NCBI GenBank assembly: GCA_903921455.1
Contig: CAIXPZ010000149.1
Coordinates: 7,660 to 71,659 of the forward strand
Origin: an uncultured Verrucomicrobia subdivision 3 bacterium
GTDB taxonomy: Bacteria > Verrucomicrobiota > Verrucomicrobiae > Limisphaerales > UBA11358
DNA length: 64,000 nucleotides
Reading direction: 5' to 3'
Under the pieces are notes generated by a model. The model was not told where the DNA came from, searched no databases, and was given only the letters and a program-made list of their open reading frames with translations. This document shows positions 17,874-48,666 of the stretch, in pieces. The first letter of the stretch is position 1; every line of letters starts with the position of its first letter. A program made the position numbers and the translations under genes.

Positions 17874-17917
17874 GAATTTGATTGCCCGCCACCGTCAGCC
17901 GCGACCATCCTTTCACC

Positions 17918-25257: not shown

Positions 25258-25258
25258 G

Positions 25259-28513: not shown

Positions 28514-28531
28514 ACCAAACCACTCAAAGAA

Positions 28532-30043
28532 ATGTCATTCAACTACAAAACCAAAACTGTTTTTGCCGCACTAGCCGCCGTTGCGGTTATTGCTCTCCCC
28601 AGCCGGGCGAGTGACGCCGCGCTGGCCGAACAGTTGAAGTCCATTGACCAGACGATGGCCAAAGGCCCGTTCCAACCCGAATGGGACTCGTTGAAAGCGC
28701 ACCAGGATCCCGAGTGGTTTCGCGACGCGAAGTTCGGCATCTACACGCACTGGGGGCCGGTGACCGTCGGTGCGGAAGACGGGCCGTCCGGCGGGCAATG
28801 GTATGGCCACAGCATGTATGACACGAACAGTCCGACGTTCCGCTATCACCAGAAAAAATTCGGCGACCAACACACGGTTGGCTACAAAGACATGGTGCCG
28901 AAGTTCACAGCGGAGAAATTCAACGCCGAAGCCTGGGCGGAATTGTTCCTGAAGGCCGGCGCGAAATTCGCCGGCCCGGTGGCCGCGCATCACGATAATT
29001 TCGCCATGTGGGATTCACGGCTCACGCGCTGGAACAGTCAAAACATGGGGCCGCACCGCGATATCACTGGTGAACTCGAAAAGGCCATTCGTGCTCTCGG
29101 GATGAAATTCATTATGACGTTTCATCACGGCTATGCGTGGCGCTACTTTGAACCCGCATTCAAGTTTGATGCGGCCGACGGGCAAAACGCCGATCTTTAC
29201 ACCGAAGTTCACGCGCCCAAAGCACCGCCCAGCCAGCACTTTCAGGATATGTGGCTGGCGATGGTAGACGAAGTATTAAGTAAATATCAGCCCGATCTCA
29301 TCTGGTTTGATTTTGAATTTTTTGCGGTCATTCAACCGGAATATCAGCAGAAACTTTTCGCCACGGCCTACGATTGGGCGGCCCAAAACAACCGCACCCT
29401 CGGGGTCTGCCAGAAATCGCGCGACATCCACAAATACACCAGCATTCTGGATTTTGAACGCGGACGCGAAGACAAGTTGGTGCCGTATCCGTGGCTGACG
29501 GATTCGATGGTCGGCGACTGGTTTCACCGGAAATCCACAACTTACAAATCCGTCAGCACGCTGGTTGGTATGCTCGTGGACATCGTGTCCAAAAACGGCT
29601 GTCTGCTCCTGGATGTCGGGCCGGCGGCGGACGGCACGATTCCGCCAACGGCGCGTGAACGCCTGCTCGGCATGGGTGACTGGCTGCGCGTCAACGGCGA
29701 GGCGATTTACAGCACACGTCCTTGGAAAATTTATGGCGAAGGGCCGACGAAACAGGCCAAGACCGGAGGCTTTAGCGAAAACGCCGACCAGCCGTTCACC
29801 GCACAGGACATCCGTTTCACGACGAAGGTCGATGCGCTTTACGCGATTGCGCTAGCGGTGCCACAAGGCGAAGTAAAAATCTATTCACTCAGCCTCGCAG
29901 CCGGGAAAATTGATGCCATCACACTGCTCGGCAGCGATGCAAAGCTGGATTGGAAACAGGATGCCGACTCGCTCACTATTCAGCCTGTCGAGAAATGGCC
30001 TTGCCCGCACGCCGTCGCTTTCAAGATCACGTTCAAGAAATAA
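28532..30043 (+). CDS. Secreted GH29 alpha-L-fucosidase, third copy
   Basis: A 503-residue exported enzyme, more distant from the other two. Signal peptide 1-26 (cleavage after SRA). The catalytic domain has 'PEWFRDAKFGIYTHWGPVTV', HHDNF (153-157) and the nucleophile Asp260 in 'LIWFDFEF'. The C-terminal beta-sandwich (residues 405-503, 'DIRFTTKVDALYAIAL') is typical of the longer eukaryote-like GH29 A group, which accepts a broader range of fucosides. It follows the symporter by 18 bases and precedes the mutarotase by 15. Confidence 0.92.
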   Translation: MSFNYKTKTVFAALAAVAVIALPSRASDAALAEQLKSIDQTMAKGPFQPEWDSLKAHQDPEWFRDAKFGIYTHWGPVTVGAEDGPSGGQWYGHSMYDTNSPTFRYHQKKFGDQHTVGYKDMVPKFTAEKFNAEAWAELFLKAGAKFAGPVAAHHDNFAMWDSRLTRWNSQNMGPHRDITGELEKAIRALGMKFIMTFHHGYAWRYFEPAFKFDAADGQNADLYTEVHAPKAPPSQHFQDMWLAMVDEVLSKYQPDLIWFDFEFFAVIQPEYQQKLFATAYDWAAQNNRTLGVCQKSRDIHKYTSILDFERGREDKLVPYPWLTDSMVGDWFHRKSTTYKSVSTLVGMLVDIVSKNGCLLLDVGPAADGTIPPTARERLLGMGDWLRVNGEAIYSTRPWKIYGEGPTKQAKTGGFSENADQPFTAQDIRFTTKVDALYAIALAVPQGEVKIYSLSLAAGKIDAITLLGSDAKLDWKQDADSLTIQPVEKWPCPHAVAFKITFKK

Positions 30044-30058
30044 CCAACTAAACATTGC

Positions 30059-30475
30059 ATGAAAAAAATTATCCAAAACATATTGCCACTACTGGGGCTG
30101 TTCGTTTTGATCGGGTGCGCCACCCCGCAGCCGCAAGTCACGCGCTATGCTTGGGTCACCGGCCTGAAGCCGGATAAGGCCGAGCGCTACGAGGATTTGC
30201 ACGCACATCCGTGGCCGGCCGTGAATCAAATGATCAAAGCCTGCCACATTCAGAACTTTTCCATCCACGAACGCGAGATCAACGGCCAGCTTTATCTGTT
30301 CGCATATCTGGAATATGCCGGCACAAATTTCGATGCCGATATGAAACACATGGCGGCCGATCCGGAGACCGTGCGCTGGTGGAAAGAAACCGACCCGTGC
30401 CAATCGCCGCTACCGGATGCCGCCGCCAAAGGGAAAATCTGGAGCGACACCAAGGAGGTCTATTTTCTGCCGTGA
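30059..30475 (+). CDS. Exported L-rhamnose/L-fucose mutarotase-like lipoprotein
   Basis: A 138-residue protein that starts with a lipoprotein signal (LLGLFVLIGC, lipidated Cys near residue 20) and then a RhaM domain: 'VTRYAWVTGLKPDKAERYEDLHAHPWPAVNQMIK', 'NFSIHEREING.LYLFAYLEY' and 'WWKETDPCQSPLP' follow the family. The enzyme interconverts alpha and beta anomers of the deoxy sugar. RhaM is normally cytoplasmic, so the export signal is unusual and would put it next to the secreted fucosidases. Its stop overlaps the GTG of the next gene (GTGA). Confidence 0.85.
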   Translation: MKKIIQNILPLLGLFVLIGCATPQPQVTRYAWVTGLKPDKAERYEDLHAHPWPAVNQMIKACHIQNFSIHEREINGQLYLFAYLEYAGTNFDADMKHMAADPETVRWWKETDPCQSPLPDAAAKGKIWSDTKEVYFLP

Positions 30476-31488
30476 AGTCGCTTGTGTTACAACAACCCGG
30501 CGCGTTCGCCTGGACCGATGTCGCCGAGCCGAGGCCCGCCAGCGGCGAAGCCCTCGTGCGCGTGCGCCGATGCGGTGTCTGCGGCACGGATATCCACGCG
30601 TTTGCGGGCAAGCAGCCGTTCTTCAGCTACCCGCGCCGACTCGGACATGAGCTGTGCGTCGAAATTATTTCGGCGCCGGCCAACAGCGGTCTGTCGGCCG
30701 GGGATCTCTGCGCGGTCGAGGCGTATTACTTTTGCGGCACATGTCCGGCCTGTCATGCGGGTAAGACCAATTGCTGCAAAAAACTCAGAGTCCTTGGCGT
30801 GCATATTGACGGCGGTCACGCGCCGTTGATGACTGTGCCGGTGGATCAGTTGCATCGTGCCAACACACTTTCGCCGGAGCAAATTGCGCTGGTCGAACCA
30901 CTGGTCATTGGCGCACATGGGGTGGAACGCGCCGCGCCAAAACCTGGCGAGCCGACGGTCATCATCGGTATGGGGCCGATTGGATTGTCCGCGGCAATTT
31001 TTGCCAAGGCCGCCGGCGCGAATCTGGTGTGCGTGGATGTGCAGGCCAACCGTTTGAATTTTGCCTGCGAGAAAATGCAACTTGGCAAAGCCATTTCGGC
31101 CGACGCCAATCTCGGGGCAAATCTTCAGAAACATTTCGGCCAGTTGCCGTCGGTGCTGATCGATGCCACCGGCAATTCAGCTGCGATGCGCGGAACATTT
31201 CAACTCGCCGAGCACGGTGGTCGGATTGTGTTTCTCGGCTTGTTCATCGGCGAGCTGGCGTTTGACGACCCGAATTTTCATCGTCGCGAGCTGACCTTGA
31301 TGGCCAGTCGCGCCGGCTTGAGCGGCACCTTCCGTGAAGTCATCCGGCTCATGGAAACTAAGAAAATTAATGTGCTGCCGCTCATCACGCACCGGTTTGG
31401 TTTCTTTGATACAGCGGAGCGGCTGCCGCAAATTCACCGCGAAGCCGGACTCGTCAAAGCCATGATTGATTTCGACAACATAATTTAA
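30472..31488 (+). CDS. Zinc-containing alcohol dehydrogenase (candidate deoxysugar dehydrogenase)
   Basis: A 338-residue MDR-family enzyme. Catalytic zinc residues are C37, H59 and E60 (GVCGTD, LGHE), and structural zinc cysteines are C88, C91, C94 and C102. 'VIIGMGPIGLSAAIFAKAAGA' is the NAD(P) fold. The GTG start at 30472 overlaps the stop of the mutarotase gene (GTGA). It may oxidise L-fucose or L-rhamnose to the lactone, or act on lactaldehyde. I cannot choose between these from sequence. The position between the mutarotase and dehydratase genes fits a first-step dehydrogenase. Confidence 0.85.
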   Translation: MKSLVLQQPGAFAWTDVAEPRPASGEALVRVRRCGVCGTDIHAFAGKQPFFSYPRRLGHELCVEIISAPANSGLSAGDLCAVEAYYFCGTCPACHAGKTNCCKKLRVLGVHIDGGHAPLMTVPVDQLHRANTLSPEQIALVEPLVIGAHGVERAAPKPGEPTVIIGMGPIGLSAAIFAKAAGANLVCVDVQANRLNFACEKMQLGKAISADANLGANLQKHFGQLPSVLIDATGNSAAMRGTFQLAEHGGRIVFLGLFIGELAFDDPNFHRRELTLMASRAGLSGTFREVIRLMETKKINVLPLITHRFGFFDTAERLPQIHREAGLVKAMIDFDNII

Positions 31489-31489
31489 A

Positions 31490-32602
31490 ATGAAAATTAC
31501 CAAACTTGAACCCATTATTCTCCACGCTCCCGTCACGCGCGGCGGCATTGCCGACAGCACGCACAAACTTTCCCACTGGGGCGCGCCTGGCGTGGCGATC
31601 CACACCGACACTGACCACATCGGCTACGGATTTTCCGGCACGCATGCCCATCTGCCGACCGACCGGCTGATCGTGGATTGCATCATCCACAGTTTCGGCC
31701 CGCTGCTGCTGGGCGAAGACCCGCGCGAAGTTTTGTCACTTTGGGAAAAACTGCACAAGCAGGCGGAAATTTACTGGGTCGGCCGTGCCGGCATCACGCA
31801 TCTGGCGCTCGGTGCGATTGATATTGCGCTGTGGGATTTGAAATCCAAGGAAGCCGGCGTGCCGCTGTGGAAACTGCTCGGCGGTTCGGCAAAGAAAAAA
31901 GTCGAGGCCTACAACACCGACGGCGGCTGGCTGAACTGGCCCTTGAAAACGGTCGTGTCCGACTGCAAACGGCTCGTGGAAAAAGAAGGCTACCGCGCGG
32001 TGAAATTGAAAGTCGGTGGGCCGAATCCGCGCGAGGATTTGCGCCGCGTCGAAGCCGTACGCAAGGCGCTCGGGCCGGAGATCCGGATCATGACGGACGC
32101 GAATGGCCGCTGGACTTTGCCACAGGCAATGCAGACCGCCGGACGTTTGAAAGATTTCGACATTGTGTGGATTGAGGAGCCGATTTATTTCGACGATGTG
32201 GAAGGTCACCGCCGTTTGGCCGAGGCCATTGAAACGCCAATTGCGCTGGGCGAACAGCTTTACACCGCATCCGCGTTTCGCGATTTCATCCATGCCGGCG
32301 CGGTGCATTACGTCCAGCCGGACGTGGTGCGGTTGGCGGGCATCACCGAATTCTGGCAGGTCGCAGACATGGCGCGCTGCTACAGCCTGCCGGTGGTTCC
32401 GCATGTCGGTGATATGTGCCAGGTGCATCAGCACCTTTGTTTCGCGCATGCGGCGTGTTCGCTGCTCGAATACATACCATGGCTGCGTGACTGGATGGAA
32501 ACCCCGGCAAAGATTGTGGACGGCTTTTACATCGCGCCCGAATCGCCCGGTGCCGGCATGACGCCGAGCAAGAAGGCGCTCAAGACGATCAATAAAATTT
32601 AA
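31490..32602 (+). CDS. Enolase-superfamily dehydratase (mandelate racemase-like), candidate aldonate dehydratase
   Basis: A 370-residue enzyme with the KxK base motif (K172, K174 in 'KLKVG'), metal ligands D203, E229 and E255, and His305 in 'VVPHVGD' as the second base. All three acidic ligands are present, so it should be active. It likely abstracts the alpha proton of a six-carbon acid sugar and eliminates water to a 2-keto-3-deoxy acid. By context the substrate would be L-fuconate or a related 6-deoxy acid. One-base gap after the alcohol dehydrogenase stop, so the genes are cotranscribed. Confidence 0.87.
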   Translation: MKITKLEPIILHAPVTRGGIADSTHKLSHWGAPGVAIHTDTDHIGYGFSGTHAHLPTDRLIVDCIIHSFGPLLLGEDPREVLSLWEKLHKQAEIYWVGRAGITHLALGAIDIALWDLKSKEAGVPLWKLLGGSAKKKVEAYNTDGGWLNWPLKTVVSDCKRLVEKEGYRAVKLKVGGPNPREDLRRVEAVRKALGPEIRIMTDANGRWTLPQAMQTAGRLKDFDIVWIEEPIYFDDVEGHRRLAEAIETPIALGEQLYTASAFRDFIHAGAVHYVQPDVVRLAGITEFWQVADMARCYSLPVVPHVGDMCQVHQHLCFAHAACSLLEYIPWLRDWMETPAKIVDGFYIAPESPGAGMTPSKKALKTINKI

Positions 32603-32610
32603 ATTTTCCG

Positions 32611-33378
32611 ATGAACTCAGAAACGCCATTTCGACTCGAAGGTGAAACCGCGCTCATCACCGGCGGCGGCACGGGCATCGGCTTGGGCATTGCGCGGTGC
32701 TTGGTCAAGGCTGGCGCGCGCGTGGTGCTGGTTGGCCGGCGCGAAAGTGAATTGGCCAAAGCCGGCGCGGAGTTGGGCACGAACGCGTCGTTCGTCGCGC
32801 AGGATGTGACGCGCTTTGACGAAATACCGGCTTTGGTGCAGCGCGCCGAACAAGCCGCAGGCACCCCGATTTCCATTCTCGTGAACAATGCCGGCGTGCA
32901 TCTGAAAAAATTCGCCGTGGACACCACGCCAGAAGAATTTCAAACCATATTCACCACGCACGTTCTCGCCGCGCACGCGCTGACGCGGGCGCTGATTCCC
33001 GGCCTGGTCGCGCGCGGGCGCGGCTCGATTCTGTTCACCTCCTCGATGGCCGCGTTCATGGGCGTGCCGCAGGTCATGGCTTACGCCGCGGCGAAGAGCG
33101 CGTATTTCGGCATGGTTTCCACGCTCTCGGCGGAACTCGCGGCGAAAGGTGTGCGCGTGAATGCCATCGCGCCCGGCTGGATTTTCAGCGAGATGTCGCG
33201 CAAGGCCCTCGACAACGATCCGGCGCGCAAATCCAAAGTGATGTCCCGCATTCAAATAGGGCGGATGGGACAGCCGGAGGACATCGGTTGGGCGGCAGTT
33301 TATCTCTGCTCCTCCGAAGCGAATTATGTCACCGGTGTCATGCTGCCGGTGGATGGCGGCGCGGCTGTGGGATTTTAA
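32611..33378 (+). CDS. Short-chain dehydrogenase/reductase (SDR)
   Basis: A 255-residue classical SDR: TGGGTGIG (nucleotide binding), 'LVNNAG' and the catalytic 'SSMAAFM...YAAAK' (Ser-Tyr-Lys) followed by 'RVNAIAPGWI'. It would oxidise a sugar or sugar acid with NAD(P). In non-phosphorylative fucose routes an SDR oxidises L-fucose, and another oxidises 2-keto-3-deoxy-L-fuconate. It lies 8 bases after the dehydratase gene in the same operon. Substrate is inferred from position. Confidence 0.88.
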   Translation: MNSETPFRLEGETALITGGGTGIGLGIARCLVKAGARVVLVGRRESELAKAGAELGTNASFVAQDVTRFDEIPALVQRAEQAAGTPISILVNNAGVHLKKFAVDTTPEEFQTIFTTHVLAAHALTRALIPGLVARGRGSILFTSSMAAFMGVPQVMAYAAAKSAYFGMVSTLSAELAAKGVRVNAIAPGWIFSEMSRKALDNDPARKSKVMSRIQIGRMGQPEDIGWAAVYLCSSEANYVTGVMLPVDGGAAVGF

Positions 33379-33392
33379 AAAAGGAATGTTTT

Positions 33393-34160
33393 ATGTTACT
33401 GAAGGATAAAGTAATTTTTCTCACCGGTGGCTCGACCGGGATCGGCTGGGATTGTGCCAAGGCCTATGCAGTGGAGGGCGCAAAAGTAGTGCTCGTAGCG
33501 CGCGGCAAAGAAGCCGTTGAAAAAGCCGCCGCCGAACTTGGCCCACAGCATCTGGGCATGGCGTGTGATGTCTCGCGTGGCGAGGAAGTGAAAGCCGCCT
33601 TGGCCGCGACGCTCTCCCGCTACGGCAAGCTGGACGCCGTTCACAACAACGCCGGAATCGGCGCGCCATCAAAAGCATTGCATGAAACCAACGAGGCGGA
33701 ATGGGACGCGTTGTTCGACATCAATCTGAAAAGTGTGTTTCACACTACCCGCCACGCTTTCGGCGCGCTCAAGGCCAGCAAGGGTTGCATCCTGAACACC
33801 AGCAGCCTGGTCGGCGTGATGGGACAGGAAATTCACGCCGCTTACACCGCAACGAAAGGCGGCATGAATGCGCTCACCAAATCCATGGCGCTGGATTATG
33901 CCAAGCACGGGATCCGCGTGAACGCCGTTTGTCCCGCCGGCACGTGGACGCCGATGCTCCGCCAATGGTGTGCCGCGCAGCCGGATCCAGGTTCCATCGA
34001 GCGGTATCTCGACGAGATTCATCCACTGGGTTATTGCCCGGAAGGCGATGTCATTGCCGATCCGTGCGTATTTTTGCTTTCAGACAAGGCGCGGTTTATC
34101 ACTGGCCACATCATGCACGTCAGCGGCGGGGCGGAACTCGGCTATCGCCGACCGCTTTGA
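33393..34160 (+). CDS. Short-chain dehydrogenase/reductase (SDR), second copy
   Basis: A 255-residue SDR, 14 bases after the first. 'FLTGGSTGIG', 'HNNAGIG', 'NTSSLVGVMGQE...YTATKGG' and 'RVNAVCPAGTWTPML' give the motif set. It is only distantly similar to the neighbouring SDR, so it is not a recent duplicate. The ATG at 33393 is used, since the 35-codon upstream extension overlaps the first SDR's tail. Likely a second oxidation in the deoxysugar route. The exact substrate is unknown. Confidence 0.88.
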   Translation: MLLKDKVIFLTGGSTGIGWDCAKAYAVEGAKVVLVARGKEAVEKAAAELGPQHLGMACDVSRGEEVKAALAATLSRYGKLDAVHNNAGIGAPSKALHETNEAEWDALFDINLKSVFHTTRHAFGALKASKGCILNTSSLVGVMGQEIHAAYTATKGGMNALTKSMALDYAKHGIRVNAVCPAGTWTPMLRQWCAAQPDPGSIERYLDEIHPLGYCPEGDVIADPCVFLLSDKARFITGHIMHVSGGAELGYRRPL

Positions 34161-34182
34161 TTTATCAAAATAATCCGACGCA

Positions 34183-35037
34183 ATGAGCCGGCCAGTTTCC
34201 ATCGTAGATTCGCATGTGCATTTTTGGAATCCGCAGCGGTTGAATTATCCGTGGCTTGCGGGCTTGTCGGCGCTGAACCGTGACTATTTGCCGGACGAGT
34301 ATTCGGTGGCGACACAGAATTGCGGCCTCAATAAATTGATATTCGTCGAGTGTGGCTGCGAGCCAACTCAAAGCCATGCCGAAGTGAAATGGATTTCCGA
34401 ACTCGCGGCGCGCGAAGTCCGCATCAAAGGAATTGTCGCTCATGTTTCATTGGAACGCGGCATCGCCGCGCGTGGTGAACTGGCCGCGCTCGCGCGGATT
34501 CCGCTCGTGAAAGGTGTGCGCCGGAATTTGCAGGGAGAAGCGGATCTGTTTTTTTGTTTGCAGCCGGACTTCCTCGCCGGCGTGCGCGCATTGGCGGATT
34601 TCAATTTCAGTTTTGACTTGTGTGTTGTCCACCGACAGTTGCCAGCGGTGATTGAATTGGTGCGGTGTTGTCCTGAAATCAAATTCATTCTTGATCACTG
34701 TGGCAAGCCCGCCATTCATGAGCGCCAGCTTGATCCGTGGCGTCAGCAAATTTGTGAACTGGCCGCGCTGCCAAATATCGCGTGTAAAATTTCCGGCCTG
34801 CTTACCGAAGCCGATTGCGCCAACTGGAAGCCAGCCGATCTTAAACCATATATTCAGCACATCCTGGACAGTTTCAGTTTTGACCGCGTGCTGTTCGGCG
34901 GCGACTGGCCGGTGCTGAATCTTGCGGGAGATTATTCGCGCTGGCTGGGGGTGCTGGATTTTTGCCTGGCGGGCACTAGTGAAAGGGACTTAAAAAAACT
35001 ATTTCAAACCAACGCGGAAAAGTTCTATCGTATCTGA
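34183..35037 (+). CDS. Amidohydrolase-family lactonase (L-fuconolactonase-like)
   Basis: A 284-residue TIM-barrel hydrolase of the amidohydrolase_2 group. 'IVDSHVHFWNP' holds the HxH metal site, 'LDHCGKP' the conserved His, and 'LFGGDWPV' the catalytic Asp. This is the same layout as L-fucono-1,5-lactonase and L-rhamnono-lactonase, which open the lactone made by the dehydrogenase. It follows the SDR genes and precedes the aldolase by 5 bases, as expected for the pathway order dehydrogenase, lactonase, dehydratase, aldolase. Confidence 0.88.
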   Translation: MSRPVSIVDSHVHFWNPQRLNYPWLAGLSALNRDYLPDEYSVATQNCGLNKLIFVECGCEPTQSHAEVKWISELAAREVRIKGIVAHVSLERGIAARGELAALARIPLVKGVRRNLQGEADLFFCLQPDFLAGVRALADFNFSFDLCVVHRQLPAVIELVRCCPEIKFILDHCGKPAIHERQLDPWRQQICELAALPNIACKISGLLTEADCANWKPADLKPYIQHILDSFSFDRVLFGGDWPVLNLAGDYSRWLGVLDFCLAGTSERDLKKLFQTNAEKFYRI

Positions 35038-35042
35038 AACCT

Positions 35043-36062
35043 ATGGCGGCCATTGAAGGAATTTTTGTCCCGAACATCGTGCCTTACGATGCGCAGGGCC
35101 GCATCAATGAGGACGAATTGCGCCGCATCATCCGCTGGCTCGTCGGCAAGGGCGTCACGGGTTTTTATCCGAACGGCAGCATGGGCGAGTTCATCCGCCT
35201 GACTTACGAGGAACGCAAGCTCGTGCTAAAAATCGTCGTCGAAGCGGCGGCGGGCAAACCCATCCTCGCCGGCGCGGCGGAGCCGAACGTGGATTTGGTT
35301 TTGGAGATGTGCCGCTACTGCGCGGATCTCGGCTGTCGCGCGGTCTCCATCACCGGACCGTATTATTACAAGCTCACGCAGGAAAGCATTGAGCAATACT
35401 TCCGGGAAATCGCCGCCAAGTCGCCGATAGACATCGTGGTCTATAACATTCCCGTCTTTGCGAATGAAATTTCGATTCCCGTTTTAAAGCGGCTCGCGCT
35501 GGACTGTCCGCGCATCGTTGGCACGAAGGACACCAGCAAGGATATGTGTCGCTTCCAGCAAGCTTTGCAGGAGATTAAGCCGCAGCGGCCGGACTTCTCG
35601 GTGCTCATCGGCTGGGAGGAGTTGCTCTGCACCGCGATGTTCATGGGTGCGGACGGCGGCACGCTATCCAGCGGCGGGGTCGCACCCGAAGTGGTGATGA
35701 AACTTTACAACGAAGCCCGCGCCGGCAAATGGATGGACGCCAAGCAGACGCAATTCAAACTACTGGAACTGTTTTCGCTGATGGTTGGGGCGCCGAATTT
35801 TCCCGAAGGGTTTCGCCAAGGCTACGAACTGCGCGGCTTCAAGGCCGGTCACGCGCGGTTTCCGCTTTCCGTGCACGAGGAAAAACTTGTCGTAGAGATG
35901 CGCGGCAAACTGGCGTGCGTGCTGGCGGACTGCGGTTTTGCGGAAGCGGCGGGCGAATGCCGGCGCGCCGATTGCACGGCCACCGGAATTACACCCAGCC
36001 GGTTGGAAATTGAAAACCTTGTCCGCAAAGTCATGGGCCAAATGTTAACTCGCCAAAATTAA
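35043..36062 (+). CDS. DapA/DHDPS-family aldolase with C-terminal encapsulation-peptide-like tail
   Basis: A 339-residue class I lyase. The Schiff-base Lys is K162 in 'IVGTKDTSKD', the catalytic Tyr is Y134 in 'VVYNIP', and 'GFYPNGSMGE' is the keto-acid binding loop. The barrel ends near residue 300. The remainder is a linker, then residues about 317-335 'TPSRLEIENLVRKVMGQM', an amphipathic helix with the hydrophobic pattern of BMC-targeting peptides such as those of PduP. It should cleave a 2-keto-3-deoxy acid to pyruvate and lactaldehyde, inferred from its neighbours. A close paralogue lies at 41,375. Confidence 0.85.
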   Translation: MAAIEGIFVPNIVPYDAQGRINEDELRRIIRWLVGKGVTGFYPNGSMGEFIRLTYEERKLVLKIVVEAAAGKPILAGAAEPNVDLVLEMCRYCADLGCRAVSITGPYYYKLTQESIEQYFREIAAKSPIDIVVYNIPVFANEISIPVLKRLALDCPRIVGTKDTSKDMCRFQQALQEIKPQRPDFSVLIGWEELLCTAMFMGADGGTLSSGGVAPEVVMKLYNEARAGKWMDAKQTQFKLLELFSLMVGAPNFPEGFRQGYELRGFKAGHARFPLSVHEEKLVVEMRGKLACVLADCGFAEAAGECRRADCTATGITPSRLEIENLVRKVMGQMLTRQN

Positions 36063-36102
36063 AAGGCGCATCGCTCTAGTGGCAGGGGAAGATTGTTTCT
36101 GA

Positions 36103-36990
36103 ATGAAAACCGCGGCCTCATTCTTTCGCTATTTCCCCGTGAGCGGGCGTGACCGGAAATGGGGTCTTTTTACCACGACGGTCGGCGAATCGCGTATAGC
36201 GCCGCATTCGGCCTATCCGCCCGGCGGACATCCCAAAAAGTTCGCTTTCGACTGGCGGCACGGGCGCATTCTCGACAGCTTTGCTCTGGTTTATATCTCA
36301 AGCGGGCGTGGAAAATTTGAATCGAAGCCAAAGTTCTCGGCCGTCATCGAACCCGGCGACGTGTTTCTTTTATTCCCTGGTGCTTGGCATCGATACACCC
36401 CCGATCGGGAAACCGGCTGGCACGAACACTGGATTGGCTTTGACGGCGACCTTGCCCGGCGCTGGCAGAAACACAAATTTATTTCCGCCCAAAACCCGGT
36501 CCTCAAGATCAATGCCGAGGACACCATGCTCGCGACGTTCAGCCACGTAATGCAATCGGTCCGCGCCAACCGTCCGGCGCTCCAGCAGGTGCTCGCCGGC
36601 GCGACGGCGAGCCTGCTCGGACTTTATTATTCCGCGCAACAGTCGCCGCCCGCTTGCGGAACGCAAGATTCCAACGCCGTTGAGCTGGCCATCGCCCGCA
36701 TCCAAAACGATTTCGCCCGGGCGCTGGACATGAAATTGTTAGCCCAAGAACTCGGCGTCGGCTACAGCTGGTTCCGCAGCAACTTCACCACACACACCGG
36801 CTTGAGTCCGCACCAATACTTGCTGGAATTGCGCCTCGTTCGCGCCCGAAACCTGTTGACGGAAACGGAACTTTCGATCAAGGAAATTGCCGTGCAAACC
36901 GGATTTGAGGATGAGCACTATTTCTCGCGCTTGTTCCGGCAGAAATTAAATCTCACACCGAGCCAGTGGCGCCGCCACCGGCGCGAATAG
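36103..36990 (+). CDS. AraC-family transcriptional regulator, second copy
   Basis: A 295-residue regulator. Residues about 60-130 form a cupin-like sensor ('FESKPKFSAVIEPGDVFLLFPGAWHRY'). The C-terminal 100 residues have two HTH units ('MKLLAQELGVGYSWFRSNFTTHTGLS' and 'IKEIAVQTGFEDEHYFSRLFRQKLNLTPSQWR'). It lies inside the catabolic gene run (41 bases after the aldolase and 103 before the second dehydratase), so it probably controls the following genes. The 103-base gap downstream is the most likely site for a promoter it acts on. Confidence 0.88.
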   Translation: MKTAASFFRYFPVSGRDRKWGLFTTTVGESRIAPHSAYPPGGHPKKFAFDWRHGRILDSFALVYISSGRGKFESKPKFSAVIEPGDVFLLFPGAWHRYTPDRETGWHEHWIGFDGDLARRWQKHKFISAQNPVLKINAEDTMLATFSHVMQSVRANRPALQQVLAGATASLLGLYYSAQQSPPACGTQDSNAVELAIARIQNDFARALDMKLLAQELGVGYSWFRSNFTTHTGLSPHQYLLELRLVRARNLLTETELSIKEIAVQTGFEDEHYFSRLFRQKLNLTPSQWRRHRRE

Positions 36991-37093
36991 GCTTGGCTCC
37001 GCGGTTTTAGCTTGGCAAAAAATCCACGAGATTTGTCATTCTGTCCCTTGTTGGAAAACCTGAAGCTTGGGAAACTACCGCCACATATTTCCG

Positions 37094-38287
37094 ATGAAAA
37101 TCACCGACATCAAACTCTACACCATTAAATCCGGCGACACCGGCGCCCGCGGTGCCGCCATGGGCGAATCGCAATACTGGGGTGGCGGCTGGCAGGCCCA
37201 GACGCTCATCTCCAACCCCATGTCAGTTCACCCGAAATACGCGCGCGTCCGTTCGCTGTGGATGGGCGGCGGGCAGGACCCGTTCGTCATTGAAATTTTC
37301 ACAGACGAAGGCGTGAGCGGCTTTTGCGCAAACTATGGCGGGGGCGCATTCGCGTGCAGCGTCATCGAGCAACATCTGAAACGCTTTCTCATCGGCCAGG
37401 ACCCGTTCAACATCGAACTCATCTGGGATCAGATGAATCGCTCTACGTTGCCCTACGGCCTCGGCGGTGTCACCAGCATGGCGATGGCCGGCGTGGACAT
37501 CGCGCTTTACGATTTGGTCGCCAAGGCGCAAAAGCTTCCTGTCTATAAAATTCTCGGCGGTCAGACCAAGGAATCTATTTCGTGCTACGTCACGATTCAT
37601 CCGGATTACGTTGATCACTGGCGCGACCGAGGTTTTCTCGGCGTAAAAATCGCCGCGCCGTGGGGCGTCGAAAGCGGACGTGACGGCATCAAGAAAATGG
37701 AAAAACTCATCGGCAAACTCCGCAAGGATCTCGGCGACGAAATGGAAATCATGATAGATTGCTATCTCTCGTGGGACATCGAATTTGCCACGCGCGTTGC
37801 CGAACGCGTCCGCGATTATGACGTGAAATGGTTTGAAGACCCGCTGCAAAACGGTTGGGCGACCGAGAACAATCGCATTTTGCGCGACCGCATTTCGCCG
37901 ATTCTCCTCGCAACCGGCAATTTGGAATACCACCCGAAAGCGTTCCACGACATCATCCACAACCACGCCACGGACATCATCCAGCCGGAGTTGCAATGGA
38001 TGGGCGGCATCACGCCCGGCCGCTGGGTCGCCGCGATGGCCAAGCCTTACGACATGCCGGTCATCCCGCACGGCGCGAGCGTTTATAATTACCACTTCGT
38101 GATGGCCAACACGAACTCGCCGTACGCCGAATATTTATCCGTTGGCAAAGGCGAGGACATCCAGCCGATTTTCAGCGTGCTCGAGGGCGAACCGTTACCG
38201 GTGAATGGCAAAGTTACGCTCGACCCGAACAAACCCGGTTTCGGTGTGGAGCTGAAACGCGAATTGCTCGCAACGTTCAAGGGCTGA
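37094..38287 (+). CDS. Enolase-superfamily dehydratase related to L-rhamnonate dehydratase
   Basis: A 397-residue protein. Its C-terminal half follows the RhmD pattern: 'GVKIAAPWGVESGRDGIKKM', D222 and E248 as metal ligands, then 'IIQPELQWMGGIT', the conserved His326 in 'IPHGASVYNYH' and 'PGFGVELKRELL'. At the third metal-ligand position, where RhmD has Glu in 'SGEHHG', this protein reads 'TGNLEY' (Asn276). The substitution could weaken or alter activity. ATG at 37094 is chosen. Substrate is probably L-rhamnonate or a stereoisomer. Confidence 0.82.
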   Translation: MKITDIKLYTIKSGDTGARGAAMGESQYWGGGWQAQTLISNPMSVHPKYARVRSLWMGGGQDPFVIEIFTDEGVSGFCANYGGGAFACSVIEQHLKRFLIGQDPFNIELIWDQMNRSTLPYGLGGVTSMAMAGVDIALYDLVAKAQKLPVYKILGGQTKESISCYVTIHPDYVDHWRDRGFLGVKIAAPWGVESGRDGIKKMEKLIGKLRKDLGDEMEIMIDCYLSWDIEFATRVAERVRDYDVKWFEDPLQNGWATENNRILRDRISPILLATGNLEYHPKAFHDIIHNHATDIIQPELQWMGGITPGRWVAAMAKPYDMPVIPHGASVYNYHFVMANTNSPYAEYLSVGKGEDIQPIFSVLEGEPLPVNGKVTLDPNKPGFGVELKRELLATFKG

Positions 38288-38289
38288 AT

Positions 38290-39351
38290 ATGAAACCGGT
38301 TCGCGTCGGCGTGATTGGTGCGGGATGGTGGGCCACGTTCGCTCACATTCCCGCCGTCCGGTCACACCCCGAGGCGGAACTGGTTGCCGTGCAAAGCCGC
38401 GCGCGCGCCAAAGCAGAAAAAATCGCCCGCGACTTTGGCGCGAAACACGCCTGCACCGACGTTGAGGAATTGCTGGCGATTCTGGAAATTAATGCCGTCA
38501 TCGTCGCCTCGACCCCCAACGTCCATTTCACGCAGGCCAAGGCGGCGCTGGAAAGTGGTCGGCACGTTTTGATCGAAAAACCGATGACGTTCGCCGCCGC
38601 CGAGGCGCGCGAACTGGTGGAATTGGCGGCGCAAAAAAATCTCCAACTCGCCATCAGTTGCCCGTGGCATTTCACGCGGCACGGCATTGAGGCGCGGCGG
38701 TTGATTCAGTCCGGCTCGCTCGGCGAAATCAAAATGATTTCCGTGCTGATGACCAACCCGATTGATAAATTGTTGCGCGGCGTAAACACCTCGCCCACGC
38801 ATGGCATGACGAACGTGTATGTCGAGCCGCGGCACGGTTCTTACAACGATCCAGCCATCGCCGGCGGCGGCCAGATCTATTGCCAAGTTGCGCACCCGGC
38901 GGCGTATCTGACATTTCTAACCGGCCTGCGTCCGGCGGAAGTGTTTGCCCGCTTCGACCGGGATGGTTCGCCGAACGACATTTACGACGCGCTCACCATC
39001 ACGCTGGAAAACGGCGCGCTAGTCTCGATCGCCAGCACCTGCGCCACGCCGTTGTGTGAGCGCAATTACGAAGTGCGAATATTCGGCAGCCAAGCCATCC
39101 TGCAACTGGAACTCTGGCGCGGCACGATGACGCAGATTGATTTCGCTAACAAGCGAGCCGAATTTCCCCCGCTTGCCGAAAACGAAATTTACCCCGCACA
39201 ATCGCCCACGTTGAATTTCATTGATGCGATTTCCGGCAAAGCCCCGAACGGTTCGCCCGGCGACCTGGGGCTCGCATCCATGGAAATCATCGAAGCCGCC
39301 TGCGCCTCGGCCGCGCATGGAAAAAATGTCCCCGTCCGCAATTGGAAATGA
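38290..39351 (+). CDS. Gfo/Idh/MocA-family oxidoreductase
   Basis: A 353-residue NAD(P)-dependent dehydrogenase: 'VGVIGAGWWATFAHIPAVRSH' is the Rossmann start, 'HVLIEKPM' carries the conserved Lys of the EKP motif, and the C-terminal half is a beta-sheet substrate domain. Such enzymes oxidise or reduce sugars and inositols. It starts 2 bases after the dehydratase stop, and its stop overlaps the ATG of the next gene (ATGA). Together with the next two genes it forms a tight module of the deoxysugar locus whose exact reaction is unclear. Confidence 0.87.
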   Translation: MKPVRVGVIGAGWWATFAHIPAVRSHPEAELVAVQSRARAKAEKIARDFGAKHACTDVEELLAILEINAVIVASTPNVHFTQAKAALESGRHVLIEKPMTFAAAEARELVELAAQKNLQLAISCPWHFTRHGIEARRLIQSGSLGEIKMISVLMTNPIDKLLRGVNTSPTHGMTNVYVEPRHGSYNDPAIAGGGQIYCQVAHPAAYLTFLTGLRPAEVFARFDRDGSPNDIYDALTITLENGALVSIASTCATPLCERNYEVRIFGSQAILQLELWRGTMTQIDFANKRAEFPPLAENEIYPAQSPTLNFIDAISGKAPNGSPGDLGLASMEIIEAACASAAHGKNVPVRNWK

Positions 39352-40526
39352 GCCCGCCCGCTCCACTTACCGGCATCGCTTGGGACCACAGCCGCGCATT
39401 ACCACCACTCGTCGCCACCGCGCAGCGCTACGAGGAAACGCACCGCGGCCTCCGCATCCATTGGCAAAAACGCACACTGGACGAATTCGGCCATGCGCCG
39501 ATTGACGTGCTGGCGCAGAAATTTGACCTCATCGTCATTGACCATCCGTGGGCGGGATTTTGCTTCGAGAAAAATCTCGTGCTCGATCTCGCGCAAATCG
39601 CGCTGCCGGAAAAGCTCGCCGAGCTGAAACAGAATTCCATCGGCCCGACGTTTGCGAGCTACGTCTGGCAAAATAAAATCCTCGCCCTGCCGATTGACGC
39701 CGCCACGCCGGCACCGAGTTGGCGGCCGGATTTGCTCGAACGTGCCGGCGTCCAGCCGCCGCAGACGTGGGCCGAAGCCGTGGCGCTCGCGCGCCGCAAG
39801 CTGGCGGTGATGCCTGGCTTCAACGCGGATTTATTTCTGCATTTTGTCATGCTCGTAAAAGCGCTCGGCGCTGAACCCTGCGCCGACCACACAAAAATTG
39901 CGCCGCGCGAAATCATGCAGCGCGCCGCCGAGCGGCTGCGCGAATTGACCGAGCCGATGCCGCGCGCGATTTTCGAGCTGAATCCCATTCTCGTCGCCGA
40001 ACGCATGACGACGACGGATGATTTCGTGTGGAACGCCTTTGCCTACACTTATAACAATTACGCGCGTCCGCATTTCGCGGCGAAGCAATTGCGGTTTGGA
40101 AATTTAATTTCACTCGAACCCGGAGGCCCGCGTTTGCGCAGCGTGCTGGGCGGAACTGGCATTGCCATTTCTGCGCACTGCAAAAACGTCGCCGCCGCGC
40201 TCGACTACGCGCTGTTCGTCGCGAGCGGCAGCACGCAAAAAGGAATTTATGTTCACGCCGGTGGCCAGTCGTCGCATCGCGCCGCGTGGAACGACCCGCT
40301 GGCGGATGAATTGTGCGGCGGGTTTTTCCGCGACACGCGGCTAACGCAAGCCGAAGCCATCGTCCGGCCGCGCTACAGCGGCTACGTCGCGCTGCAAACG
40401 GATGGCGGCAAAGCCTTGCAGGAATTTTTGCGCGACGGCCGCAGTCTTCCGGCGGTGCTCGACAAGCTCGATACGCTTTACCGCGAGTCGCGGATGCGCG
40501 GCGGCAAGGATTTTCAAACCAACTGA
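39348..40526 (+). CDS. Sugar-binding-protein-like protein without a signal peptide
   Basis: A 392-residue protein resembling ABC-type carbohydrate-binding proteins (SBP_bac_1): 'GIAWDHSRALPPLVATAQRYEETHRGLRIHWQKR', 'FDLIVIDHPWAGF' and 'LLERAGVQPPQTWAEAVAL' are the usual first-domain motifs. It has no hydrophobic export signal at residues 1-25 and no permease gene is nearby, so it would be cytoplasmic unless an unusual start is used. Its ATG overlaps the previous stop (ATGA). It may be a sugar sensor or a transport remnant. I cannot decide. Confidence 0.75.
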   Translation: MSPPAPLTGIAWDHSRALPPLVATAQRYEETHRGLRIHWQKRTLDEFGHAPIDVLAQKFDLIVIDHPWAGFCFEKNLVLDLAQIALPEKLAELKQNSIGPTFASYVWQNKILALPIDAATPAPSWRPDLLERAGVQPPQTWAEAVALARRKLAVMPGFNADLFLHFVMLVKALGAEPCADHTKIAPREIMQRAAERLRELTEPMPRAIFELNPILVAERMTTTDDFVWNAFAYTYNNYARPHFAAKQLRFGNLISLEPGGPRLRSVLGGTGIAISAHCKNVAAALDYALFVASGSTQKGIYVHAGGQSSHRAAWNDPLADELCGGFFRDTRLTQAEAIVRPRYSGYVALQTDGGKALQEFLRDGRSLPAVLDKLDTLYRESRMRGGKDFQTN

Positions 40527-40529
40527 CGC

Positions 40530-41378
40530 ATGAAACTGAAATTAAGTTGCACCGATTTTTCGTTTCCGCTGCTGGCGCACGAACAGGCGCTGGCCGCCAT
40601 CGCCCTGCTTGGCTTGCGCGGCGCGGACATCGGTTTGTTTGAAGGCCACGGCCATCTCAAGCCGAGTGCCGAACTGAAAAAGCCCGCTGCCAGTGGCGCA
40701 AAACTGAAACGCCGTTTGTCGGCGCACGGATTGGTGGCGGCGGATATATTTTTGCAAATCCACGCGGGCTTCGTCGAGTTTGCCATCAACCATCCCGACG
40801 CCAAACGGCGCAAGTTTGCGTGCGAACAATTTTTGTGCGCGCTGGATTACGCCAATGCCGCCGGCGCGGAACACGTCACGATTTTGCCGGGCGTCACTTT
40901 TGCGAACGAGTCGCGCGAAAAATCCCTGGCCCGCAGCGCCGAGGAATTGAACTGGCGCGTGGCGCAGGCCAAAGCGGCCAAGCTCCCGCTCGCCGTCGAG
41001 CCGCACGTCGGCTCGCTCACGGACACGCCGGAGCAAGCGCTGGATTTGGTGAAGCGTGTGCCCGGCCTTGGTTTCACGTTGGATTATGCGCATTTTACCC
41101 GCGCCGGAATTTCCGACGCGCGCATCGAGCCGCTGACCCAATTTGCCACGCATCTGCACGCACGCACCGCGCGTCGCGGACGCCTGCAAGCCCCGCTGAA
41201 AGAAAACACGATTAATTTTCCGCGCGTCGTGAAGGCGCTCGCGCAGCAGAAATTCAGCGGCTGGATCGCCCTGGAATATGTGTGGATTGACTGGGAATAT
41301 TGCAACGAAGTGGATATTATTTCTGAAACCGTGCAGTTGAAAAATCTGCTGGCCGCAGCGGCGGCGAAAAATAAATGA
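40530..41378 (+). CDS. TIM-barrel sugar isomerase/epimerase (xylose isomerase-like)
   Basis: A 282-residue protein of the AP endonuclease family 2 barrel. The series 'HVTILPGVTFANESREKS', 'LPLAVEPHVGSLTDTPEQALDLV', 'LGFTLDYAHFTRAGI' and 'HARTARRGRLQAP' supplies the metal-binding Glu, Asp, His residues in the usual order. Related enzymes isomerise or epimerise keto-sugars. It is 3 bases after the binding-protein gene, and its stop overlaps the ATG of the second aldolase (ATGA). Substrate unknown. Confidence 0.85.
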   Translation: MKLKLSCTDFSFPLLAHEQALAAIALLGLRGADIGLFEGHGHLKPSAELKKPAASGAKLKRRLSAHGLVAADIFLQIHAGFVEFAINHPDAKRRKFACEQFLCALDYANAAGAEHVTILPGVTFANESREKSLARSAEELNWRVAQAKAAKLPLAVEPHVGSLTDTPEQALDLVKRVPGLGFTLDYAHFTRAGISDARIEPLTQFATHLHARTARRGRLQAPLKENTINFPRVVKALAQQKFSGWIALEYVWIDWEYCNEVDIISETVQLKNLLAAAAAKNK

Positions 41379-42388
41379 GCAAAATTTCCGGCATCTATAC
41401 TCCGAACATCGTTCCGTTCAACGACGACCACTCGCTCAACGAGGGCGAGTTGCGACGGCTGACGGCGTGGCTCATTGAGAAGGGCGTCCACGGACTTTAT
41501 CCCAATGGCAGCACCGGCGAATTTATCCGTTTGAGTTTTGAAGACCGGCTGCGCGTGGTGAAAATCATGGCGGAGGAAAATCGCGGCCGGCTGCCGATTC
41601 TTGCGGGCGCAGCGGAGCCGAACTCCGATCAGGTGTTGCAGGCGTGCCAGTTTTATGCCGATCTTGGCTGTCGCGCGGTGAGTCTGACCGGACCGTATTA
41701 CTACAAAGTTTCGCAGGAAAGCATCGAAAAATATTTCCGCGAGCTCGCAGCGAAATCACCGATTGATATTTTACTCTACAACATTCCGCAGTTCTCGAAT
41801 GAAATCAGTCTGCCGGTGGTGCAGCGGCTGGCGCTGGATTGCCCGCGCATCATCGGCATCAAGGATTCGAGCCGCGACTTTCCTCGCTTCTGCACGATGC
41901 TGGCGCAGATTAAGCCGCAGCGGCCGGACTTTGTGTGCTTCAGTGGCACGGAGGAAATTTTGTATCCTAGCCTGGTCATGGGCGGCGACGGCGGGACGAT
42001 TGCCAGCTCGGGCGTAATGCCGGAAGTGATCGTGAAATTATACAACGACTTTCTCGCAGGTAACCACGCCGAATGCCGGCGGGTGCAGTTGAAAATTCAG
42101 GACATCATCGGAGCAATGTTTGCGGCGGGAAATTTTCCGGAAGGCTTTCGCGCGGCGGTTTCGTTGCGCGGGTTTAATCCCGGCCCGCCGCGTTTCCCCA
42201 TGAGCATGGCTGAACTGGCTAATCTGGAAGAGGCGAAAGGCAAGCTGGCTTGTCTGCTCGGCGAATGTGGTTATGCTGAAGCCGCCCGTGAATGTGAGTT
42301 GCGGCGGGCAAGTTCAACCAATGTTCGGCCCCCGGTATGGGATGTGAATTCCATCGTGGCGGCCGTGGTGAAGGATTTAAAACCATGA
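41375..42388 (+). CDS. DapA/DHDPS-family aldolase, second copy, with encapsulation-peptide-like tail
   Basis: A 337-residue paralogue of the enzyme at 35,043, similar along the whole barrel. Lys163 in '[10 protein letters not shown]' and Tyr135 in 'LLYNIPQ' are the active-site pair. After the barrel (about residue 300) a linker '[11 protein letters not shown]' leads to '[15 protein letters not shown]' (residues 321-335), a short hydrophobic helix similar to encapsulation peptides. Its stop overlaps the ATG of the BMC shell gene (ATGA), so the aldolase and the shell protein are translationally coupled. It probably yields pyruvate plus lactaldehyde. Inferred. Confidence 0.85.
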
Positions 42389-43008
42389 CCGCACTTGGCT
42401 TCATCGAGATTCCGTTCCTCAGCGTCGCGGCGGTCATTGCCGACGCGGCGGCCAAGGCGGCGCGCGTTTCCATCCTCGGCTTCGAAGCGACGGGGAACGA
42501 AAACATATTGATCCGGCTCAGTGGCGGCGGCGTTTCGGATGTTGAAGCGGCCCTGGCCGCAGCGGATGAAGCGGCGACGCGTCTCGGCTCGGTCGCCATC
42601 GTGCAAGCCATCGCGCGTCCCGCTGGGGGGATGAATGCCATGATTAATTTTCCGAACGCCAACAACCCGCTTTACGGCGGGCGCGACCAGTTTTTACCAA
42701 CCGATTTTCAAAACCCAAAAAACCAAACTATGAGCAACAAACAAGAAGCCTTGGGCATCCTCGAAACGCAGGGACTGACCGCCATTCTCGAAGCCACAGA
42801 CGCCATGCTGAAATCGGCCAATGTCACGCTGGTCGGCAAGGAAAAGATCGGTGCGGCCTACGTCACGGTCATCGTGAAAGGCGACGTCGCCGCTGTGACG
42901 GCGGCCGTGGATGCTGGCGCAAAAGCCGTCGGCCAACTCGGCAAATTGATCGCCGCCCATGTCATCGCGCGGCCGCATGACGACTTGACGGCGCTGTTGC
43001 CGAAGTAA
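42385..43008 (+). CDS. Bacterial microcompartment shell protein with two tandem BMC domains
   Basis: A 207-residue shell protein. Domain 1 (residues 1-85, '[21 protein letters not shown]') is a divergent BMC fold. Domain 2 (118-204, '[20 protein letters not shown]', pore loop 'EKIGAAYV', '[12 protein letters not shown]') is close to PduA-type hexamer subunits. The linker (86-117) is about 32 residues. Two fused domains make it a trimer-forming BMC-T-type protein with unlike pores (KIGAA against ATGNEN). An ATG at codon 116 could give a second product, but its ribosome-binding site is poor. It starts overlapping the second aldolase stop. It is the only shell gene in the window. Confidence 0.9.
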
Positions 43009-43027
43009 TTTTTAGGTTGTTCCGCTG

Positions 43028-43408
43028 ATGCCGCCGAAACCCAGATATTCCGCCCGCTCCCGCGTCTTGTCGCAGTGGCGTGGCGTGGATTATGCGCCGC
43101 TGGAAGTCGCCCGCACCTTGCCCGCGCGCCTGCCGGGCGAAGTGTTGCCTGCGTTGCTGAAAGATTTAAAACTGGATCTGCGCCAGGCCGAGGCGGAAGT
43201 CGTCAAAGTTTGGAACGCGTTGATTGATCCGGTCGTTACCGCGCACGCGCAGCCGGCCAACTTGCACAAGGGCACGCTGTTCGTGAACGTGGACAGCAGC
43301 GTGTGGCTCACGGAAATCGTCCGCTACCGGCGCAAGGAAATCATCGAACGACTCCAGCACAGCTTCGGCAAATCGGTCATCCAGAAAATTTCCTTTCGCA
43401 TCGGGTGA
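43028..43408 (+). CDS. DUF721 (DciA-like) family protein
   Basis: A 126-residue protein. 'EVVKVWNALIDPVVTAHAQPANLHKGTLFVNVDSSVWLTEI...KKEI...L' type sequence, with a basic, disordered N-terminus, matches the DUF721 family. Its members include DciA, a loader or recruiter of the replicative helicase DnaB in bacteria lacking DnaC. It is 19 bases after the shell gene in the same direction but looks like a core gene, not part of the sugar pathway. Confidence 0.82.
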   Translation: MPPKPRYSARSRVLSQWRGVDYAPLEVARTLPARLPGEVLPALLKDLKLDLRQAEAEVVKVWNALIDPVVTAHAQPANLHKGTLFVNVDSSVWLTEIVRYRRKEIIERLQHSFGKSVIQKISFRIG

Positions 43409-46811: not shown

Positions 46812-48568
<1,757 letters not shown>

Positions 48569-48666
48569 GGACGCGAAGTTCAACAAAACAGGGTCGGAGT
48601 GTCAACGCACGTCTTGTGCAAAAGTTGTTCGATTTTGTTCTGGTTCGGGTTTAGCCTTGCCGCCGC

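Follow-up and report, generated by a model that had tools for sequence, protein, structure and literature searches.

A 64,000-nucleotide stretch of DNA from an uncultured Verrucomicrobia subdivision 3 bacterium (contig CAIXPZ010000149.1; hereafter the window) carries 16 co-directional genes, spanning 26648-43008 with gaps of at most 100 nt, the last of which encodes a tandem bacterial microcompartment (BMC) shell protein. They run in the order symporter, GH29 fucosidase, RhaM-type mutarotase, zinc dehydrogenase, dehydratase 1, short-chain dehydrogenases (SDR) 1 and 2, lactonase-like amidohydrolase, DapA1, AraC regulator, rhamnonate-dehydratase-like enzyme, GFO oxidoreductase, solute-binding-like protein, TIM barrel, DapA2 and tandem shell protein, DapA1 and DapA2 being aldolases of the dihydrodipicolinate synthase/N-acetylneuraminate lyase (DHDPS/NAL) family. 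One GH95 and two GH29 fucosidase genes lie 5' of the run, giving the window four alpha-L-fucosidase genes (one GH95, three GH29), and the first gene 3' of the shell gene is DciA. The ORF list and Pfam confirm where an earlier note on this DNA had placed both DHDPS-family open reading frames (ORFs), an enolase-type dehydratase and the two-domain BMC ORF, and the gapless succession of aldolases and dehydratases and then the shell gene that it described is there, although the run is longer than it stated. The 4-nt overlap (ATGA) between the aldolase 2 stop and the shell gene is likewise present when the latter is read from the ATG at 42385; the longest ORF at this position begins at 42337, ahead of that codon. 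A plasmid origin was considered and rejected, 34183-43100 having no near match among 72,556 plasmid records.

We read the locus, with a probability of about 0.7, as a satellite operon that adds a second, pyruvate-forming and unphosphorylated entry to the lactaldehyde-processing compartment of Planctomycetes and Verrucomicrobia (PVM), and that brings its own tandem shell tile. Its composition is that of a satellite locus as defined in PMC8217296 (shell proteins alone or with enzymes), namely a tandem shell gene and tailed aldolases with no BMC-P gene in the window. The lack of BMC-P and aldehyde dehydrogenase (AldDH) genes that the earlier note had remarked on was borne out, at the sensitivity of the method, by a six-frame search of the window (ORFs of at least 40 aa) with ten main-locus proteins of a relative (three BMC-P, three BMC-H, AldDH, phosphotransacylase (PTAC), acetate kinase and class II aldolase), the sole match being the tandem shell gene, because of its similarity to BMC-H. 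The gene set that marks a PVM main locus (class II aldolase PF00596, BMC-P, and BMC-H with AldDH or PTAC) is not found within these 64 kb.

Linkage of aldolase and shell genes in relatives

GTDB contigs were scanned with the shell protein and the best 80 of 306 confirmed loci were compared: a Verrucomicrobia-type group of 48 (L001-L046, L049 and L059; L011, L027 and L038 are recorded under other phyla, L041 under none) and 32 Planctomycetes records. An aldolase was counted as adjacent if it lay no more than 300 nt downstream of the shell match, or up to 400 nt upstream of it and on the same strand. By this measure 37 of the 48 loci have a DapA1- or DapA2-type aldolase upstream of the shell gene and one (L043) has it downstream, 38 in all, in agreement with the earlier proposal that such an aldolase is tied to a BMC shell gene. 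The 38 pairs are not all independent, since L010 and L036 come from one genome and the aldolase tails of L038 and L039 are identical. The pair is conserved and the genes around it vary. L002, L004 and L016 have a fucose module with DapA1 immediately before the shell gene, L023 has a rhamnonate-dehydratase module with DapA2 in two pieces, and in the window both modules stand ahead of one shell gene. In genomes G002, G003 and G004 the DapA2 orthologue, its tail kept, sits with TIM-barrel and solute-binding-like genes and has no shell gene within 1.5 kb on either side. Behind the tandem shell gene of L005 (10590-14096) are an SDR, a CoA-transferase-type protein and a thiolase, the aldolase there being about 6 kb off. 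The Planctomycetes tandem shell genes (L047, L048, L050-L058, L060-L080) are about 44-50% identical; no neighbour is common to the seven loci sampled from these 32, and in L077 and L078 a tailed aldolase adjoins the shell gene.

The shell protein has two PF00936 domains in tandem, not permuted (the best stretch spans profile positions 1-75), as in the BMC-Ts type. Its model shows two BMC folds (mean pLDDT 87), with a BMC-H tandem fusion (6ner) as the nearest solved chain, and natural PduT reaches a template modelling (TM) score of only about 0.4 over the whole monomer, which is probably due to the orientation of the domains in the model. In an alignment that leaves out 10 of the 48 Verrucomicrobia-type loci, KEKIGA and RPH of the second domain are kept in all 47 rows, and a first-domain loop, TGNE, is present in 22 of 39 Verrucomicrobia-type rows, the window's included, against none of eight Planctomycetes rows. 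This loop may line a pore for a keto acid. In L159, L160 and L161 (genomes G064, G326 and G106, respectively) a homologue of the window's PF01261 TIM barrel (40530-41378) and an SDR come immediately before a more distant tandem shell protein (38-40% identical), and this, on gene order, is a second kind of shell-plus-enzyme module.

The aldolases and their C-terminal tails

Lys163, Tyr135 and GSxGE are invariant across 36 aligned aldolase sequences, which thus have the catalytic Lys and Tyr and the GxxG motif of DHDPS/NAL Schiff-base aldolases, and the fold matches that of YagE (2v8z; TM 0.79 by query, 0.89 by target). The loop YNIPQFSN resembles YNIPQFTN of 2-keto-3-deoxygluconate aldolase (4uxd) and differs from YNVPGRTG of DHDPS (1o5k); the Arg after the YNxP loop has its role in lysine-biosynthesis DHDPS. 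By this loop, and by their place in the tree, the window's aldolases are distinct from DapA of lysine biosynthesis: among 70 rows the aldolases of the shell-paired type form one clade of 52 (support 96/92), apart from 14 control rows of ordinary or distant DapA-family proteins. The clade splits into 24 DapA1-like rows (100/98) and 28 DapA2-like rows (only 91/77), and the deeper forks are unsure owing to long branches. Over 299 columns DapA1 shares 97% identity with its L002 counterpart, which directly adjoins the shell gene of that locus.

The aldolases reach past the DHDPS domain with a variable linker followed by a conserved helix, absent in six of the 36 aligned sequences and replaced by another tail in one (P0090). 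In the DapA2 model this is a separate helix (residues 324-335) behind a lower-confidence linker, and a terminal peptide of this kind, amphipathic as judged by eye, after a variable linker is what BMC cargo carries. A position matrix was built from 25 N-terminal peptides of main-locus AldDH proteins, picked by eye among 50 AldDH rows (repeats, rows showing no peptide and divergent rows, L180 and L181 among them, were excluded), and used to score the last 35 residues of aldolases of the paired type (at least 350 bits to DapA1 or DapA2) and of controls (below 250 bits). The 20 controls, 19 DHDPS-family proteins from 15 of the same genomes and one piece of the L023 copy, are a partial set, 30 of 77 PF00701 matches having been taken. 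Paired-type tails (n=50) have a median of 7.1, with 21 at 8 bits or more, and control tails a median of -7.5 and a maximum of 3.5, with none at 8 bits (rank test p 1e-9, nominal since the rows are related); of the shuffled tails, 0.4% attain 8 bits. Scores of -4.3, -0.4 and 14.8 were obtained for three proteins of intermediate similarity (250-350 bits), which were kept separate. When both ends of 17 window genes were scored, only the C-termini of DapA1 (5.3) and DapA2 (3.4) came out above zero. By this measure most paired-type tails resemble the N-terminal peptides of PVM AldDH and those of the control DapA proteins do not, which suggests that the aldolases may be packaged in the shell.

A strict rule, that a copy is tailed if and only if its genome has a BMC, was tried and rejected, being broken by G599, G207 and G010. 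The untailed copy (L151) of the BMC-P-negative genome G176 does fit such a rule, but it is a single case on a long branch; in four genomes of the family of G176 searched for further untailed orthologues, the only match was in G176 itself. L036, L127 and proteins such as P0082, P0090 and P0111 represent an aldolase subgroup with a different, basic C-terminal tail of the SSAKVDSMLERIRKRLP type, which may or may not be another targeting peptide.

Tails and linkage together bear on whether the neighbourhood is incidental, with cytosolic aldolases and a shell gene that merely shares their transcript. Shell loci with no adjacent aldolase (10 of 48) and the want of a common neighbour in the seven sampled Planctomycetes loci would suit such an account; it is nevertheless highly improbable, as the aldolase-shell pair is conserved amid varying genes, such tails are found among the window genes on the aldolases alone, and they occur also on copies with no shell gene nearby.

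Main-locus genes in related genomes

The shell loci were assigned to 46 genomes, L046 being left out. BMC-P is present in 43 of these, mostly in three copies (the same search matches two of 14 control genomes, E. coli and Synechococcus), which for the relatives agrees with the earlier expectation that BMC-P would be encoded elsewhere. PF00936 is found in all 46 (2 to 9 matches each) and PF00596 in 45, and by hand count the class II aldolase lies within about 3 kb of BMC-P in 41 (the others are G001, G030, G037, G038 and G039). The main locus of G004 comprises class II aldolase, AldDH, acetate kinase, PTAC, three BMC-P and three BMC-H genes, with no tandem shell gene in the 18 kb examined; between its AldDH and a BMC-P gene (L111:7897-8283) is a PD-(D/E)XK nuclease-family protein (PF13366). 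Satellite loci are defined as lying apart from a main locus of the same genome (PMC8217296); in the relatives BMC-P is present, and in none of the 80 shell loci do the flanks examined match the BMC-P, class II aldolase, AldDH, PTAC or acetate kinase proteins used as queries. In two further loci the module may be integrated with main-locus genes. L233 (G019) has a tailed aldolase transcribed divergently from the run PTAC, BMC-H, BMC-H, acetate kinase, BMC-H, BMC-P, at a distance of about 1 kb, and in L234 (G030), a whole contig of 4 kb, a tailed aldolase lies about 1 kb from PTAC.

The earlier note had taken the locus for a microcompartment built on DapA-type aldolases. Its link between aldolase and shell stands, but relatives keep a PVM-type class II aldolase near BMC-P; DapA is therefore more likely added cargo on a satellite locus than the core of a separate compartment. 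Replacement of the class II aldolase by DapA was rejected in view of PF00596 in 45 of the 46 genomes, and a separate DapA-only compartment was dropped as first choice given BMC-P, PF00936 and PF00596 in relatives together with L233 and L234. On another reading the aldolases and tandem shell protein would form a small compartment, sheet or scaffold of their own, independent of the PVM shell. The locus has no shell gene besides the tandem one, the examined flanks of the 80 loci are free of matches to the tested main-locus proteins, and G030 and G037 have just two PF00936 matches and no BMC-P, but we judge this improbable: nearly all the genomes have BMC-P, most tails resemble PVM AldDH peptides, L233 and L234 place a tailed aldolase next to main-locus genes and next to PTAC, respectively, with L234 belonging to G030, and the G037 locus may be misbinned, because the aldolase tails in the G037 and G038 loci are identical.

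Across genomes, aldolase and BMC-P co-occur, with p values that are nominal (phylogeny is uncorrected and many of the genomes are metagenome-assembled, of unstated completeness). Among 288 Verrucomicrobiota genomes the aldolase (E <=1e-80) is found in eight and BMC-P in 48, with seven of the eight in common (p 1.7e-5); the exception is G176 with its untailed copy, while G207 has BMC-P and an untailed copy 43% identical. All four genomes with a tandem shell protein more than 50% identical also have the aldolase. Among 320 genomes of the order of G002 the aldolase (E <=1e-90) is in 14 and BMC-P in 186, with 13 of the 14 in common (p 0.005); the exception is G001, without BMC-P but with BMC-H-type matches, and G599 has BMC-P and an untailed copy. 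These counts bear on a history in which the operon descends from a PVM-type satellite, the main locus has disappeared from the window organism, and the tandem shell gene is a relic. The window has no main-locus gene and 134 of the 320 genomes show no BMC-P, but such a loss is very improbable, both aldolases having kept tails and catalytic residues, the shell gene being open, and BMC-P being present in nearly all DapA-positive genomes of the order, as well as in both G002 (nearest DapA1) and G015 (near DapA2, highest identity).

Several observations weigh against a satellite operon that feeds a PVM compartment. For the window organism the evidence for a main locus comes from relatives. In ten of the 48 shell loci no aldolase adjoins the shell gene: the sequence of L041 does not extend upstream, the tailed aldolase of L005 is 6 kb downstream, L019, L029 and L030 have a tailed one elsewhere in the genome, the L008 and L059 genomes have only a 46% identical aldolase, those of L037 and L049 (G036 and G045) have no DapA2 match at E 1e-40, and L046 shares its bin name with L012, which has the pair. 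BMC-P is missing from three shell-gene genomes (G001, G030 and G037), and co-occurrence within the order is weak evidence because BMC-P is common there. Five of the 50 paired-type tails score below zero, namely L015 and L025, although a motif can be made out in them by eye, the two G010 copies L036 and L127, which carry a different tail, and the tailless L151; nor is the tail rule strict, G599 and G207 having BMC-P yet untailed copies. Finally, the NCBIfam matches of the dehydratases, the lactonase and both aldolases are all below cut-off, and the likely substrate is deduced from neighbouring genes.

Candidate sugar route and comparison with known systems

The gene families of the operon, with the four fucosidases, suggest a non-phosphorylative route for L-fucose or L-rhamnose. 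Pfam and NCBIfam bear out the gene set that the earlier note had proposed at the level of families, the specific NCBIfam models falling below cut-off, and its choice of lactaldehyde as the likely enclosed product also finds support. In the route we propose, the fucosidases would release L-fucose (L-rhamnose may also serve), the symporter would take the sugar in, and mutarotase, dehydrogenases, lactonase and enolase-type dehydratases would convert it to a 2-keto-3-deoxy-6-deoxy sugar acid. The two Schiff-base aldolases, one per module, would be packed into the PVM shell by their C-terminal encapsulation peptides, and the tandem shell protein would be a dedicated facet tile, probably the port for the acid. 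Inside, 2-keto-3-deoxy-L-fuconate or -rhamnonate would be split into pyruvate and L-lactaldehyde, as judged from the neighbouring genes and by analogy with the yeast LRA pathway, the product of which is lactaldehyde. The lactaldehyde would then be handled by the resident AldDH, PduL-type PTAC and acetate kinase, like that from the phosphorylated route.

The aldolases could instead be encapsulated PVM cargo acting on another 2-keto-3-deoxy acid, or be dehydratases, the enclosed product then being other than L-lactaldehyde. DHDPS/NAL enzymes are functionally diverse, neither aldolase has an NCBIfam model above cut-off, dehydratase 1 is most like talarate/galactarate dehydratase, and an Azospirillum family member is described as a dehydratase (PMC9795676). 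Family aldolases retain the Lys and Tyr, however, and the known L-aldopentonate dehydratase is thought, in that paper, to have swapped the Tyr, whereas Tyr135 and Lys163 are invariant here; four fucosidases, a RhaM-family mutarotase and fuconolactonase- and rhamnonate-dehydratase-like enzymes indicate 6-deoxy sugars, and published work describes lactaldehyde as processed in the PVM compartment (PMC8857213). We therefore regard a different substrate as unlikely, and prefer the fucose or rhamnose route through a satellite operon.

Table 1. Positions in the window of the operon, its tail and shell features, and the fucosidase genes before it.
Feature	Position	Strand	Evidence
GH95 alpha-L-fucosidase	19088..21466	+	Pfam PF22124 E 7e-175
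GH29 alpha-L-fucosidase with F5/8 type C domain	23572..25257	+	Pfam PF01120 E 1e-80
GH29 alpha-L-fucosidase	25238..26626	+	Pfam PF01120 E 1e-79
Sodium:solute symporter, probable sugar importer	26648..28513	+	Pfam PF00474 E 2e-61
GH29 alpha-L-fucosidase	28532..30043	+	Pfam PF01120 E 1e-95
RhaM-family mutarotase	30059..30475	+	Pfam PF05336 E 1e-24
Zinc alcohol dehydrogenase family, start codon uncertain	30481..31488	+	Pfam PF08240/PF00107
Enolase-superfamily sugar acid dehydratase 1	31490..32602	+	Pfam PF13378 E 1e-64; best NCBIfam TalGalacDh, below cut-off
SDR dehydrogenase 1	32611..33378	+	Pfam PF13561
SDR dehydrogenase 2	33390..34160	+	Pfam PF13561
Amidohydrolase, L-fuconolactonase-like	34183..35037	+	Pfam PF04909; NCBIfam FuconLaconase E 3e-47, below cut-off
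DHDPS-family aldolase 1 (DapA1)	35043..36062	+	PF00701 E 4e-50
DapA1 C-terminal encapsulation-peptide-like stretch	36000..36059	+	tail score 5.3, AldDH-peptide matrix
AraC-family regulator	36103..36990	+	PF12833
Enolase-superfamily dehydratase 2, L-rhamnonate-dehydratase-like (MR_MLE)	37067..38287 (start 37067 or 37091)	+	NCBIfam L-rhamnonate dehydratase E 1.5e-87, 294 bits, below 393 cut-off
GFO/IDH/MocA oxidoreductase	38290..39351	+	PF01408
Extracellular solute-binding-protein-like	39342..40526	+	PF13416
Xylose-isomerase-like TIM barrel	40530..41378	+	PF01261
DHDPS-family aldolase 2 (DapA2)	41375..42388	+	PF00701 E 4e-54; model mean pLDDT 89
DapA2 C-terminal encapsulation-peptide-like helix	42338..42385	+	tail score 3.4; helix 324-335 in model
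Tandem BMC shell protein, BMC-Ts type	42385..43008	+	two PF00936 stretches (E 2e-37); model mean pLDDT 87; nearest PDB 6ner

Outside these features, the translations of a minus-strand pair 3' of the operon (46812-48586) resemble, by eye, a PII-type protein and an ammonium transporter, and at 16740-19006 two radical SAM genes lie side by side, of which the first has a C-terminal domain of the CofH/MqnC kind.

More generally, we lean by a little towards the view that PVM compartments of Verrucomicrobiota are multi-route organelles, in which satellite operons would add a tailed, pyruvate-forming Schiff-base aldolase and a matching tandem tile to admit the 2-keto-3-deoxy acid. Fucose and rhamnose routes with and without phosphorylation would then converge on enclosed lactaldehyde, and DHDPS/NAL aldolases would be a new class of microcompartment signature enzyme. 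If so, satellite operons carrying cargo as well as a shell tile could extend the signature chemistry of a microcompartment, phosphorylated sugars would not be the only supply of the Verrucomicrobiota fucose/rhamnose organelle, and the tail peptides and tandem tile could be of use in shell engineering. PMC8857213 asks whether compartment-based fucose use is superior to a cytosolic pathway without lactaldehyde; as the non-phosphorylative route appears tied to the compartment here, both routes could be compared within one lineage. A literature search found no description of a DHDPS-type aldolase in a microcompartment, with Erbilgin 2014, Watanabe 2020, Sichert 2020, Sizikov 2020 and supplements outside its reach. 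An earlier link of the non-phosphorylated fucose pathway to a compartment is possible, because PMC12263773 credits Sizikov with reporting that pathway in sponge Verrucomicrobia.

The proposed system shares with the PVM microcompartment its lineages and, as far as the genes suggest, its sugars and toxic product (L-lactaldehyde), and most relatives have a PVM-type main locus. It differs in that PVM compartments are described with a class II aldolase acting on a sugar phosphate (PMC4207490, PMC8857213), whereas the substrate of the DHDPS/NAL Schiff-base aldolases here would be an unphosphorylated keto acid, with pyruvate, not dihydroxyacetone phosphate, as product, and in the tandem shell protein, which the G004 main locus lacks. 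The succession of dehydrogenase, lactonase, dehydratase and aldolase recalls the non-phosphorylative L-rhamnose route LRA1-4 of yeast, of which the aldolase LRA4 is needed by Pichia for growth on rhamnose (PMC4891683), and a SAR202 reconstruction ends at pyruvate and lactate or lactaldehyde (PMC10444878); in the available text of these two papers neither route is linked to a compartment. Of compartments with an aldolase in the locus, ACI, with its AldDH on a satellite, and SPU have pfam00596 and DeoC-type pfam01791 enzymes rather than pfam00701, as described by Sutter et al. 2021 (PMC8217296). The closest parallel in organisation is provided by the EUT modules on HO, SPU3 and SPU6 satellite loci in the same survey, which likewise combine a signature enzyme with their own tandem shell protein. 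Those modules carry ethanolamine ammonia lyase enzymes and an EutL-type BMC-Tsp where the window has aldolases and a non-permuted tandem shell protein, and the authors of the survey suggest that they may extend the function of the main compartment (PMC8217296).

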